A stretch of DNA of 64,000 nt from the NCBI RefSeq assembly GCF_902170305.1, contig NZ_CABHWW010000007.1:1-64000 (forward strand). The letters are read 5' to 3'. This document shows positions 47,655 to 53,047 of this stretch, piece after piece; position 1 is the first letter of the stretch; the number at the start of each line of letters is the position of its first letter. The notes beneath the pieces are model-generated. The model worked only from the letters and a program-made list of their open reading frames with translations. It ran no database searches and had not been told where the DNA came from. The translations under genes were made by a program, and so were the position numbers. This stretch comes from Yersinia alsatica. Its GTDB lineage: Bacteria; Pseudomonadota; Gammaproteobacteria; Enterobacterales; Enterobacteriaceae.

Positions 47655-48149
47655 TTATGCTTTCAACTGAGCACTGATTTTTTCCAATGCTTGGGTGGCA
47701 CATTGTGCGTCCAGATGACCACCCGGCGCACCGGCAACCCCTATCGCACCAACCACTTCGTCGCCTGCTTTCACCGGCACTCCGCCACCTAACAGCAAGA
47801 AACCGGGAATATCTTTCAGGTTATTGGCCGCAGGTGTTTTTTGACTGTTTTCCATCACTTGTCCACTTGGCGTCTTGGTCGATAGCGCGGTAAAAGCCTT
47901 TTGCTCACTGGCTTTGACGGTATGTGGCCCGGCGTTATCCGCGCGCAGCACGGTTTTGATGATGCCCGCACGATCCACCACGGTTACCGCAACGTTATAG
48001 CCATCAGCCTGGCAAATTGCGAGGGTGCGGCTGGCTAAATCAGTGGCCAGCGCCAGAGAGAGATTGCGTTCAGTGTTTAAACCCGCAGCAGAGGCTTGAG
48101 TTATCAGGCCAATGAATAAGGCGGAGGTCAGGGCAATAGGCTTGATCAT
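47655..48149 (-). CDS. Secreted GlcG/HbpS-like (DUF336) protein
   Basis: A 164-residue protein with a signal peptide (cleavage near ASA-AGLNTE, residue 21). The DUF336 fold shows in VAVTVVDRAGIIKTVLRADN, ASEQKAFTALSTKTPSG and the glycine-rich GFLLLGGGVPVKAGDEVVGA. Relatives include HbpS of Streptomyces, an exported haem-binding protein that modulates the sensor kinase SenS. Here it lies 92 nt downstream of a response regulator-kinase pair on the same strand, so a sensory accessory role is an attractive inference. Haem binding is not shown by the sequence alone. Confidence 0.85.
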   Translation of the reverse strand: MIKPIALTSALFIGLITQASAAGLNTERNLSLALATDLASRTLAICQADGYNVAVTVVDRAGIIKTVLRADNAGPHTVKASEQKAFTALSTKTPSGQVMENSQKTPAANNLKDIPGFLLLGGGVPVKAGDEVVGAIGVAGAPGGHLDAQCATQALEKISAQLKA

Positions 48150-48241
48150 ATAAAATCCTTATTGTTAGCGAAGTGATTTCATCACTGTGTCGCCATCCTA
48201 CGGCGAAAAGTGGTGAAAAAACATTCGGCTAACTACCCGTT

Positions 48242-48880
48242 TTACTCCGTAGATCTACCTATCATCAGTGATGAATGACTGGCTATCAGGGGCGCATAAT
48301 GATGAATAAGCAACGCCAGAGAGCTCACTTCCAACTTGGCAAAGAGGTTAGCGCGGTGCGCCTCCACAGTGCGTGGTGACAGTGACAAAAGGTGGGCGAT
48401 TTGTTTACTGGTTTCCCCTTGAATAATCAGGGCCGCCACTTCTCGTTCGCGCGCGGAAAGTTGGTTGAGCCGTTGTTGATAACTTGCCTGTTGCTGCTGG
48501 GCAGCTAGCGCCTGTTCATGCTGCTCCAGAGCCATACTGACGGTTTCAATTAATACATCGGCATCAATGGGTTTGGTTAAAAATTCCAGCGCGCCACCTT
48601 TGAAAGCCCGGCGGCATAATTCAACATTGCCATGCCCGGTCATAATGATGACCGGGAGGGTGCTATCACGAGATTGAATGGCTTCTAATATCGTCATCCC
48701 GCTTTTACCCGGCATACGAATGTCCAGCAGTACACAGCTTGGTTGAGTCACGGCCAAAGTATCGAGGAAAGTTTGGCCGCCGCTGAATGTTTTAACTTCC
48801 CAGCCCATGGTGGTGAGCAACGCGGTCAATGCGGCACGTACGCCCTCATCATCATCAACCAGATAAATGTGTTTTGTCAT
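48242..48880 (-). CDS. Two-component response regulator (FixJ/NarL type)
   Basis: A 212-residue regulator. The receiver domain has acidic residues D9-D10-D11, phosphoacceptor Asp53 (VLLDIRMPG), Thr in IMTGHG and Lys in LTKPID. A LuxR-type helix-turn-helix follows (about 138-190, LSAREREVAALIIQGETSKQ). The gene overlaps the 3' end of the kinase gene by 26 nt, indicating tight coupling. Nearest family logic is FixJ/TtrR/DctR. Its targets are unknown; the HbpS-like gene downstream and chrR upstream are candidates. Confidence 0.92.
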   Translation of the reverse strand: MTKHIYLVDDDEGVRAALTALLTTMGWEVKTFSGGQTFLDTLAVTQPSCVLLDIRMPGKSGMTILEAIQSRDSTLPVIIMTGHGNVELCRRAFKGGALEFLTKPIDADVLIETVSMALEQHEQALAAQQQQASYQQRLNQLSAREREVAALIIQGETSKQIAHLLSLSPRTVEAHRANLFAKLEVSSLALLIHHYAPLIASHSSLMIGRSTE

Positions 48881-50204
48881 GCGTGCTCCCGATAATCAGA
48901 GGAAAAGTCAGGGTAAAGCTGGCTCCGCCATGCACACTGTTCCCTGCTTTTATGTCACCACCCATTCGCTGTACCAATGTTTCACACAAGGTTAGCCCCA
49001 ATCCCAGCCCACTTTCACGGGTGGTATAGAAAGGCGTAAACAGGTTGTCCAGTTGCTGCTGACTTAGTCCCGGCCCATTATCTTCAATCTGAATAACCCA
49101 CTGTTTGGCTTGCTGGCTAACAGTAAAATAGACGGTTGGCTTGGGGGATTGCTGTATTGCGTGAATGGCGTTGCTGAGTAAATTATGTAGAACCTGCTCT
49201 AGCCATAAAGGGTCACTCTGAAGGGGCGGCAAATGAGCCGGAATATTATTTAATATTATGATGTTAGCTGCGGCAATTTCATGGTTCAAAAGCACCTTAA
49301 CCCGCCGCCAGATGTCTGCCACTATCACCGGTTGTAAATTTACCTGCCCACGGCTGAGTAAGGTGCGCAGGCGATCCAGTAAAGCGGCAATCCGTTTGAT
49401 TTGTTCAACTGAAGCCACCAGCAATGGCGTAACTTTCTCATCCTGCGGCGGTAATAACCTTAGCGCAGTCTGGTTATAGGTCAGCGTCGCGGTCAGTGGC
49501 TGGTTTAATTCATGGGCGATGCCGGTCGCAATTTCCCCCATGGCATTCAGTCTGGCTTGATCAGCAAATTTAGCCCGCTGCTCGGCATGTGCGCGATACA
49601 GCGCCAACTGTTGCCAGCGATGCCAGCCATACAGCACTGCGGCGGCGATCAGTGAAAGCAGTAGGGCGGTCAACCAAGGTAAATCACGCCAAACGGGAGT
49701 GGCATGGCCGATTAAGGTGAAAGATTGTTCCCCTTCTCCTAAGGGCTTTTGCCACTGCCAGAAGCTTTTGGCTGATGAATGGCCCAGAACCGCCAATTGA
49801 TGCTGCTGATAGAGTAAGACCAAACTGTCAAAATTAGCCGGTAAGCCCACCACTTGCAGGAGTTTTTGGCCGTTAACCTGTAAACCGCTGCCACTGTAGG
49901 AGTTAGATAAGCGGTAATCGCCCCCCTGAACTTGCAAGGTTAGCTGACCGGCTTTTGATTGGTCTGCGGGTGTTTGGTTTATCGCCACTAACTGAGGAAA
50001 GTGGCGCTGCAATTGCACCAGTTGGCTCGGTTCCAGCGCCAAAAACAAAATAGCCTGCTGCTGAGCTAACTGCTGGCTCAGTTCGCGATGCGTGGTGCGA
50101 AATTCGGCTTCCCGCTCCGCTTGTTGTGTATTCAACCCGAACCAACCCAGCCAGAATGTGGATATCAGGGTCAAGATAAGCCAGAGCATGATTTTAATGG
50201 CCAT
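48855..50204 (-). CDS. Sensor histidine kinase
   Basis: A 449-residue kinase. Membrane segments at about 4-24 and 175-194 bracket a periplasmic sensor domain of about 150 residues with no family I recognise. The dimerisation domain has the phosphorylatable His231 (GEIATGIAHELNQPL). The ATPase domain has the N box NLLSNAIHAI, G1 DNGPGLS and G2 GLGLGL. It resembles the FixL/DctB group. The upstream neighbour is chrR (106-nt gap). The extracytoplasmic domain faces the compartment into which the HbpS-like neighbour is exported. Confidence 0.92.
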   Translation of the reverse strand: MAIKIMLWLILTLISTFWLGWFGLNTQQAEREAEFRTTHRELSQQLAQQQAILFLALEPSQLVQLQRHFPQLVAINQTPADQSKAGQLTLQVQGGDYRLSNSYSGSGLQVNGQKLLQVVGLPANFDSLVLLYQQHQLAVLGHSSAKSFWQWQKPLGEGEQSFTLIGHATPVWRDLPWLTALLLSLIAAAVLYGWHRWQQLALYRAHAEQRAKFADQARLNAMGEIATGIAHELNQPLTATLTYNQTALRLLPPQDEKVTPLLVASVEQIKRIAALLDRLRTLLSRGQVNLQPVIVADIWRRVKVLLNHEIAAANIIILNNIPAHLPPLQSDPLWLEQVLHNLLSNAIHAIQQSPKPTVYFTVSQQAKQWVIQIEDNGPGLSQQQLDNLFTPFYTTRESGLGLGLTLCETLVQRMGGDIKAGNSVHGGASFTLTFPLIIGSTHDKTHLSG

Positions 50205-50310: not shown

Positions 50311-50883
50311 CTATTTTACGCGAACACGATCAATATAGGTGGCAAAGGCAGAAAGCTGGCCGGTTAGGAAATCCAATGTGCCTTGGTCAACTAATTCCTT
50401 GGCTTGCTCATCGACTTTGCTTTGAATGACACCACCCATAAATTCAGGTTTATTCATTACCATTGCGTCGAGGAAGACCAAAATCTGGCGCAGATGATAT
50501 TGGCAACGTGCGCCTCCCACTGGCCCCATCGAGCTGGTCTGAATGGCAACCGGTTTGCCAGCCAGTGGCTGGTTAGGTAAACGGGATAACCAGTCGATGG
50601 CATTTTTTAATCCGCCGGGCACCGAATAGTTATATTCCGGTGTCACGATAATAACCCCGTCCGCCTGACGAATTTGCTCAGCAATGGCCTGAATTGTGGT
50701 TGGGAACCCATCTTCCTGTTGCACGTCAGCATCATAAAGCGGAATGTCGCGAATAGAAGGCAGTGCTTCAATCGTGACACCCGCAGGTGCTAATTTTGGT
50801 AGCGCGCGTGCCACCATGGCGTTGTAGGAACCACTACGTAGGCTACCCAGCAGGGTAACAATTTTAAGGGATTGCTGTGACAT
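50311..50883 (-). CDS. chrR: NADPH-dependent FMN/quinone reductase ChrR (YieF)
   Basis: A 190-residue flavodoxin-fold enzyme (E. coli 188) that reduces quinones and chromate by two-electron steps. The flavin-phosphate loop is LLGSLRSGSYN, and the conserved TPEYNYSVPGGLKNAIDWLS contacts FMN. The start is ATG 50883 (MSQQSLKIV) behind GGGAG; the frame is open to 50946, but that extension has no family support. It is divergent from a chemoreceptor gene. Confidence 0.94.
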   Translation of the reverse strand: MSQQSLKIVTLLGSLRSGSYNAMVARALPKLAPAGVTIEALPSIRDIPLYDADVQQEDGFPTTIQAIAEQIRQADGVIIVTPEYNYSVPGGLKNAIDWLSRLPNQPLAGKPVAIQTSSMGPVGGARCQYHLRQILVFLDAMVMNKPEFMGGVIQSKVDEQAKELVDQGTLDFLTGQLSAFATYIDRVRVK

Positions 50884-51142
50884 GACATACTCCCGTTGCG
50901 TTAAAAAATAGTATCGTTCTTCATCAAGATTAGGCCAAGACTGCACGACAAAACAATGACTATATATCGTGCTACCCCTTTAAATTTCACTTAAATCAGT
51001 GTTTTTCGCAGATTTATTACACTGAAATTGTGATCCCTGGAGAGGAACGGAAAAATCATTTCTTCCCGTTATCAAGTCTGTACGCGAAATGCCGTTAATA
51101 GATCTGGAGCTATCCAGCTCTCTTACATTGAGCGACACGATA

Positions 51143-53047
51143 ATGCTAAAAACCACTCAAGCCCGATTCACCTTACTCGTTAGTGCGTTTTTCATTTTCT
51201 TGCTGATAATCACCGTGGTGGTTATTCAGCTTTTTGTGACACCACAACTCAAGCAATCTGAAAGCACCATTATTGGCAATAGCGTTGACCAAATCGCGAC
51301 AGCCATAACCGCGCAAATGAATAAGGTAGAAGCACAAGCCCGCAGTATTACGCAGGCTGTTGCCATAATGGACAGTAATACCATCGACCAATTATTACCT
51401 GGGTTAGTGGATCAGTATGGTGACAGTAATGTATTTGGTGGTGGGATTTGGCCATTACCGAATAAGCGTGAGCAAGGGGTAATTAAATTCAGCACGTTTT
51501 TTGCTCGCAATGGAGAAAATAAGTTAACGGTTAACACCCATTGGAACTCACCGGAATCGCAAAATTATTTTGAACAGCCTTGGTATAAAGAGGGCTTAAA
51601 TGCGCCTAAAGGCTTCTGTGCCTGGGCTAAAGCTTATCAGGATGATGCTAGCCCGCAGCCAAGAACTAACTGTGCGATGGCGATTTATAAAGGTGACGAT
51701 GTTTATGGTGTTTCAACCATTGATGTCACATTAGGTTTCTTTAACCGGCTGGTTAAAGAGATGGAACAGAAAGTGAATGGCACCATTCTGATTGTTGAAG
51801 CTGATGGCAAGATTGTTGGTAGTAGCGCCTTAGCCGATGGCAAAGCCGAGTTAAAAAATCTGTCAGACTTTGCCGGTAGTTTGCCGATGGCCGCAGAGAC
51901 ACAGCGGTTACTGGCGCAGATGAAAGATCAACAATCACTGGAAAGTGAATTTGATGTCGATGGAACCTCTCACACCCTGTTTATCCGCCCGATTGCCAAT
52001 AGCCCGTGGTATTTAGTCACTGACTTGCCCACTAGTTTATTGGTCAAACAGAGCCACAGTATTCTGCTGCACCTGGGGTTAGTGCAGATCCCTATCATGT
52101 TGTTATTGCTGTTGTTCCTGGTGTTCTCTATCCGTGTCTTTATGAAACGGTTAGCCGTGTTGAAAGAGAATATCACCGCGCTGTCTGCGGGTGGGGCCGA
52201 TTTAACTCAGCGCTTGCCGCAAAGCACTAGCCCGGAATTCAACGCCATTAACCAGAGCTTCAATGATTTTATCGACTATTTGCAGCAAATGATGCGGCAG
52301 GTCGGCGAGAGCAGTCTGGCGATTGCTTCGGCGTCACGTCAAATTGCCAGTGGTAATCTGGACTTATCGGCCCGAACTGAAGATCAGGCCAGTTCCATTG
52401 AGCAAACTGCGGCTTCAATGGATGAATTGACCAGTACCGTGAAACAAAATGCGGATAACGCCAGCCACGCCAACCAACTGGCGATGGATGCTTCCACTGT
52501 TGCGGTAAAAGGCAGCACAGTGGTGAAACAAGTGGTAGATACCATGGGTTCAATCAATCATTCATCGAAGAAAATTGTCGATATCATCAGTGTGATTGAT
52601 AGCATCGCCTTCCAAACTAATATTCTGGCACTGAATGCAGCAGTAGAAGCAGCCAGAGCGGGCGAGCAGGGGCGCGGTTTCGCCGTTGTAGCCTCTGAAG
52701 TGCGCAACTTGGCTCAGCGCTCTGCCACTTCCGCCCGTGAAATTAAAAAGCTGATTGAAGACTCAGTGGCTGATATTGCGATTGGTACTGGCTTGGTGGC
52801 AGATGCTGGCACCACGATGGATGACCTGATGAGCGGCGTCTCCAATGTGGCGGCATTAATGAATGAAATCATGGCCTCCAGTCAGGAACAAAGTCTGGGG
52901 ATTGAGCAGGTTAATCTGGCGATTAGTCAGTTAGATAACTCAACTCAGCAAAATGCGGCGCTGGTGGAACAAGTGGCTGCGGCAGCGCAAGCCATGCAGG
53001 ATCAAACCGTGCAATTGGAAACTGTCATCAGCGGCTTTAAGGTTTAA
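51143..53047 (+). CDS. Methyl-accepting chemotaxis protein
   Basis: A 634-residue chemoreceptor. A first membrane helix (about 9-31) and a second (about 305-330) flank a large dCACHE-type periplasmic ligand domain with the [14 protein letters not shown] and [13 protein letters not shown] segments. HAMP and the cytoplasmic methylation helices follow. The hairpin tip [20 protein letters not shown] (about 489-508) binds CheA and CheW. There is no C-terminal NWETF-type tether for CheR; it ends ISGFKV. I choose ATG 51143; ATG 51089 adds 18 residues. The ligand is unknown; CACHE domains often bind amino or organic acids. Confidence 0.9.

Follow-up and report, generated by a model that had tools for sequence, protein, structure and literature searches.

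A kinase, a FixJ-type regulator and an exported DUF336 protein of Yersinia alsatica and other Proteobacteria as a probable dedicated two-component circuit

Background

The closest described counterpart of the locus considered here is the HbpS-SenS-SenR system of Streptomyces, in which the exported HbpS modulates autophosphorylation of the kinase SenS; according to the accessible part of its description, HbpS is exported via the Tat pathway and SenR activates the hbpS gene (PMC3754957). HbpS also binds cobalamin, and a 2016 paper reported that hbpS-like genes cluster with senS-senR only in actinobacteria (PMC4991794). The available portion of the EfgA paper describes EfgA as a formaldehyde-binding protein and names the HbpS studies as the sole comprehensive earlier work on a bacterial DUF336 protein. 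Here we analyze a stretch of 64,000 nucleotides from Yersinia alsatica (contig NZ_CABHWW010000007.1, positions 1 to 64,000; hereafter the window), in which genes for a histidine kinase, a FixJ-type response regulator and an exported DUF336/HbpS-like protein (PF03928) are consecutive on the minus strand, at the coordinates that a preliminary description had assigned to them. Comparison of this trio with its relatives suggests that it very probably constitutes a dedicated two-component circuit with the exported DUF336 protein as main output. A search of the open-access literature found no description of this proteobacterial circuit.

Comparison of the locus with known systems

As in the Streptomyces system, an exported PF03928 protein is clustered with a membrane kinase and a regulator, both in the window and in 72 of 80 named loci. 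The PF03928 profile covers the window protein over positions 1-128 of 128 (107.1 bits against a curated cut-off of 25), and its predicted model is nearest in both fold and sequence to HbpS (3fpv; TMt 0.89, rmsd 1.8, 41% identity). The two systems differ in several respects: Tat export is ascribed to HbpS in what is accessible of its description, whereas the signal peptide of the window protein is predicted, on inspection by eye, to be of the Sec type; the Thr-113 haem site of HbpS is not conserved here and its iron sites are so only in part; and the SenR sites (deduced consensus CGGGCCGCGTCCCG) do not resemble the 36-bp element described below. SenS, moreover, presumably belongs to a different class of kinases from the one in the window. 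A simple home-made signal-peptide rule is passed by 77 of 81 DUF336 proteins, namely that of the window and 80 relatives.

The regulator matches the FixJ and TtrR models below their curated cut-offs (NF006900, 192.8 versus 255 bits; NF040749, 169 versus 290 bits), and the kinase core matches the AtoS, TtrS, ZraS and FixL models, again always under the cut-offs. These kinase matches begin no earlier than about residue 180, and thus the sensor domain is not common to FixL, TtrS, AtoS and ZraS; furthermore, unlike FixL-FixJ and TtrS-TtrR, the present system has an exported DUF336 protein as its probable output. The periplasmic domain of the kinase had been noted as unclassified. A Pfam search of the N-terminal ~200 residues returned no match up to E=1, and the domain looks Cache-like in a predicted structure. 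It is about 10% identical to the Cache-domain sensors KinD and CqsR and to LuxQ, and a fold held in common would not by itself reveal a function. The PF03928 fold is also that of EfgA and PduO-C, and the accessible parts of their descriptions credit them with binding of small molecules or tetrapyrroles; unlike the proteins considered here they are described there as cytoplasmic or microcompartment proteins. To judge from sequence, the locus most likely operates as a two-component system to which an exported partner is dedicated, and the haem site of HbpS is not retained in it. An Achromobacter xylosoxidans DUF336 serum antigen (PMC12108089) was also considered as the same protein; the primers given in the accessible part of that paper match none of the loci examined, and it was therefore not used.

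Conservation of the gene order

Named genomes were scanned with the PF03928 alignment, and the best 80 of 338 relatives were taken; judged from organism names, these belong to Alpha-, Beta- and Gammaproteobacteria. The nearest of them to the window protein come from Yersinia rohdei, Y. proxima and Y. massiliensis (94-97%). The order kinase-regulator-PF03928 on one strand is kept in 72 of the 80 loci, which include four with a gene that seems broken or split in the list of open reading frames (L087, L090, L095 and L123; L and G numbers are our labels for loci and genomes); as these loci are the best 80 of 338, the count speaks for close relatives only.

The evidence for linkage is stronger from the kinase side than from the DUF336 side. 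A profile of the sensor domain detected kinases in 20 of 398 genomes from across the phylum, and for 19 of the 20 a PF03928 gene starts on the same strand about 1.4-1.6 kb past that domain (two of these matches, in G513 and G230, have a stop in the matched stretch). DUF336 adjoins 16 of 19 kinases in a family-level sample of 149 genomes, the adjacency in both samples having been read by eye. Conversely, some PF03928 match occurs in 135 of the 398 genomes and is linked to a kinase with this sensor domain in only 19, so that the family is mostly unlinked to it. The concern that most relatives might have a DUF336 gene without the kinase pair is therefore unfounded for close relatives and correct for the PF03928 family at large.

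Outside Yersinia the sensor domains are 16-30% identical to that of the window, with the order still kept, and the flanking genes vary from group to group (neighbours were defined as open reading frames with mutual similarity, and minor ones are possibly wrong). His231 and Asn341/Asn345 are invariant across 18 kinases, and D49, T77 and K99 (trimmed-alignment numbering) are present at >=95% in 71 regulators, the alignments having covered 71 of 73 regulators and 68 of 73 kinases from trio loci; as far as sequence can tell, the catalytic and phospho-acceptor motifs of the two-component pair are intact.

A shared control element upstream of the DUF336 gene

Before the DUF336 gene of the window is a putative operator with 15 defined positions (Table 1), which overlaps the 3' end of the regulator gene by 17 bp. 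Of 73 trio loci, 71 have a site before DUF336 that matches at least 11 of these positions, as against 44 of 2160 random windows, some of which may overlap real sites; this count is not independent because the 15 positions were picked after viewing the trio loci. A TAnnnT hexamer stands exactly 22 bp past the element in 54 of the 71 sites and in no more than two at every other offset tried. A further comparison took the 30 top-ranking PF03928 genes from the 398 genomes, and there the element (at least 12 positions) together with the hexamer occurs at 14 of 15 kinase-linked and none of 15 unlinked DUF336 genes (Fisher value 2e-7, relatedness ignored). This comparison drew on other genomes, yet one was the window's own and some were close relatives, and its 30 loci held 15 of the 19 linked genes.

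The genome of the window contains a single perfect element, the sole other match with up to one mismatch lying inside a long open frame. In 13 of 15 further trio genomes the perfect element occurs exactly once, at DUF336, with no match for a reversed-pattern control, and when one mismatch is allowed the match remains single in 11 of 13 genomes. Comparison of these sequences shows the linkage, the element, its promoter geometry and the usual presence of one perfect site per genome scanned.

When the kinase pair separates from the PF03928 gene the element goes with the latter. In G068 and the genome of L059 the two are on different contigs and the element is at DUF336 (13/15 each), and in the Achromobacter loci L079 and L115 the pair lies ~7.5 kb upstream of DUF336 on the same contig with other genes between, the element again being at DUF336 (15/15). 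These four separated kinase pairs (L186, L226-L228) have no site of at least 12 positions within 7-8 kb around them. As the element precedes the PF03928 gene and stays with it after such separation, this gene is, on sequence grounds, most likely the main target of the regulator; and as the element marks the DUF336 gene, we place its product as an output. The preliminary description had joint action of the three genes resting on proximity alone, and the kept order and common element support their linkage beyond that.

We propose that the periplasmic Cache-like domain of the kinase would detect a signal, and that the phosphorylated FixJ-type regulator would then bind the 36-bp element, which immediately precedes the promoter, and turn on the DUF336 gene. 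Activation is favored over repression because the site sits just upstream of the promoter. A gene for an outer-membrane barrel would be co-induced in some relatives, and in others an ankyrin-repeat gene directly following DUF336. Once in the periplasm, the exported protein would probably bind or remove the inducing compound and thereby damp the signal, or it might report to the kinase. We infer the regulator as the binder, and likewise the activation, the ligand and any feedback.

Exceptional loci

Among the 149 family-level genomes three kinases lack an adjacent DUF336 gene (G068, G119 and G148). In G119 an apparent DUF336 remnant was seen by eye between the regulator and a barrel gene (L185, between 5094 and 5311), with its start and end present and its middle missing. 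The kinase pair and the element occur with no DUF336 gene behind them in G148 (L184), G488 (L187) and G557 (L229); G148 and G488 yielded no DUF336 match elsewhere in the genome at the cut-offs used, and G557 has one elsewhere (L062). G488 holds the one kinase of the 20 in the 398-genome sample that has no DUF336 gene beside it. In L187 (G488:C2, 5226-5450) the kinase-regulator pair is followed by a 14/15 element and a TAATAT hexamer and then by no evident long gene on the same strand; two stem-loop-like stretches, of which the second ends with a run of T, were noted by eye after the element, and the output there is possibly a small RNA or a lost gene.

Three DUF336 genes (L062, L069 and L096) have neither the element nor an adjacent kinase, and in the genome of L062 the element precedes a barrel gene behind the kinase pair. 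An Achromobacter-type sensor query against eight exception genomes matched well in those of L079, L115 and L059 and weakly in that of L062, and had no match in those of L069, L096, L121 and L092; it missed a divergent kinase beside L121.

Outer-membrane barrel and ankyrin-repeat genes

Nine loci (L026, L034, L035, L036, L038, L039, L042, L106 and L158) have a homologue of the Enterobacter chuandaensis barrel gene mentioned below directly 3' of PF03928, and in G148 and a Lampropedia genome it is a barrel gene, not PF03928, that comes after the kinase pair and element. Barrel genes unlinked to the trio also carry the element: in Enterobacter chuandaensis a second perfect element precedes such a gene, and the element with the hexamer is found in E. 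cancerogenus (perfect site) and Y. rohdei (12/15). Separately, the OMP_b-brl (PF13505) barrel family was seen to bear the element both with and without a DUF336 gene in the vicinity (L184, L218, L219 and L229). A homology check of the window's own genome detected no such barrel gene.

In 23 of the 80 loci, mostly Burkholderiales by name, PF03928 is directly followed on its own strand by a gene for an ankyrin-repeat protein. These proteins (L111, 7496-8251, and 22 other loci) often have a signal-like start by eye, and L096, which has neither kinase nor element, also has an ankyrin gene after DUF336. Pfam was run on one of the 23 ankyrin proteins (L111) and on four barrel proteins. The position of the ankyrin gene after DUF336 brings to mind AnkB, which is said to be a periplasmic protein acting with catalase.

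Features of the window

Table 1. Features of the trio, its control region and the adjoining gene in the window
Feature	Position	Strand	Remarks
DUF336/HbpS-like protein, PF03928, 164 aa	47655..48149	-	E=8.3e-31; predicted signal peptide ~1-21 (by eye)
Promoter -10-like hexamer TAGGAT	48195..48200	-	22 bp after operator
Putative regulator operator GTA-N4-TAC-N12-GTA-N5-CCGAAT, 36 bp	48223..48258	-	15/15 defined positions
FixJ-type response regulator, 212 aa	48242..48880	-	receiver and GerE/LuxR HTH (helix-turn-helix)
Histidine kinase, 449 aa	48855..50204	-	HisKA E=6.6e-8; HATPase_c E=6.3e-26
Predicted layout of the kinase			long first transmembrane/signalling helix, periplasmic Cache-like domain (~residues 25-175), second transmembrane helix, HisKA and HATPase_c
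ChrR-like FMN reductase (FMN_red)	50311..50886	-	upstream of kinase; outside conserved unit

The regulator and kinase genes overlap by 26 bp. The upstream chrR gene had been taken to fit a redox theme; it adjoins the trio only in the four Yersinia loci among the 81 examined, and we rejected it as a member of the system. Divergent from chrR is a gene for a methyl-accepting chemotaxis protein with a dCache_1 domain (51089-53047). The genome has three more PF03928 genes at other places.

Evaluation of the proposed circuit and its alternatives

Several observations weigh against a dedicated circuit with DUF336 as its main output. One trio, L183, lacks a recognisable element, two others score only 7 (L129) and 10 (L076) of 15, and the alphaproteobacterial sites looked at score 11-12. 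L121 (14/15) and L059 have no hexamer at the set offset, and L092 has the element and a regulator with no kinase found. On the side of the barrel genes, the site in G119 reaches only 10/15, and no element was found at a distant homologue (31%) in the genome of L087. Specificity falls as the pattern is relaxed: the reversed control gives 3 matches in 13 genomes at up to one mismatch, and at up to two mismatches the window's own genome gives 10 matches versus 15 for the control, so that weaker sites cannot be judged. Finally, another co-occurring regulator could read the element.

The alternative that survives best is a true three-component sensor of the HbpS-SenS-SenR kind, as first suggested for this locus, in which the DUF336 protein would dock on the Cache-like domain and set the activity of the kinase, besides being induced itself; we regard it as possible, with the balance tilting against it. 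That the three genes belong together is upheld by the order in 72 of 80 loci, by 19 of 20 kinases and by the common operator-promoter. The sensor role of DUF336 fares less well: the element makes it an output, and the pair and element persist with no DUF336 gene behind them in L184 and L187, whose genomes yielded none elsewhere, and in L229, whose genome keeps one at another place. That a few genomes retain the kinase pair but have no PF03928 gene behind it suggests that this protein is not always needed for sensing. A related and still doubtful proposal is a proteobacterial parallel to the Streptomyces system, in which a Cache-type kinase would be joined by an exported DUF336 protein serving both as dedicated transcriptional target and as periplasmic co-sensor or feedback partner, with an invariant cysteine pair and histidine replacing the HbpS haem site.

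These residues, C46, H76 and C150, are invariant in the relatives of the window protein (H76 in 81/81) and are absent by alignment from HbpS and from the three other PF03928 proteins of the genome. They were tried as a mark of kinase linkage and rejected, because unlinked relatives (L043-L045, and several others by eye) have the pattern too.

An unlikely explanation is that the DUF336 protein binds haem as HbpS does and that the circuit answers haem or oxidative stress, along the lines of the haem/redox sensing that the preliminary description had raised. In its favor, HbpS is the nearest protein in fold and sequence, H76 could be an alternative ligand, a redox-sensitive disulfide might link C46 and C150, and the ankyrin gene of 23 loci resembles that of AnkB with its catalase. 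With regard to the HbpS iron sites (K108, E78xxE81 and D141xxE144), the window protein keeps K108 (as K112) and E81 (as E82), while E78 is K79 and D141 is H145; the 73 trio proteins have Glu at E78 in 41, but Lys at K108 in only 5, Glu at E81 in 9 and Asp at D141 in none. The Thr-113 position of HbpS is F117 in the window and Phe or Tyr in all 81 proteins; as this threonine is absent throughout and the iron sites are only partly kept, haem binding by homology was rejected as the default. Furthermore, the first helix of the window protein (32-48), the rough-alignment place of the PduO haem ligand His18, holds no histidine, PF03928 proteins bind other compounds too (cobalamin for HbpS, and formaldehyde for EfgA in the accessible part of its description), and chrR is not conserved. 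Hitch-hiking of the genes in a laterally transferred block without any functional link, to which the patchy spread (20 of 398 genomes) might point, is highly improbable given the order kept across strongly diverged sensor domains, the varying flanks and the element that remains at DUF336 when the genes separate.

Conclusions

Set against the view of such clusters as restricted to actinobacteria (PMC4991794), alpha-, beta- and gammaproteobacteria have an arrangement of the HbpS-SenS-SenR kind that carries another DNA element and is proposed here to be a dedicated circuit. An outer-membrane barrel is tied to this circuit by the element, and the ankyrin-repeat protein by position. The element also provides a promoter open to direct testing and, with a single perfect copy in most of the genomes scanned, may offer an unusually clean route to the function of the exported DUF336 proteins.
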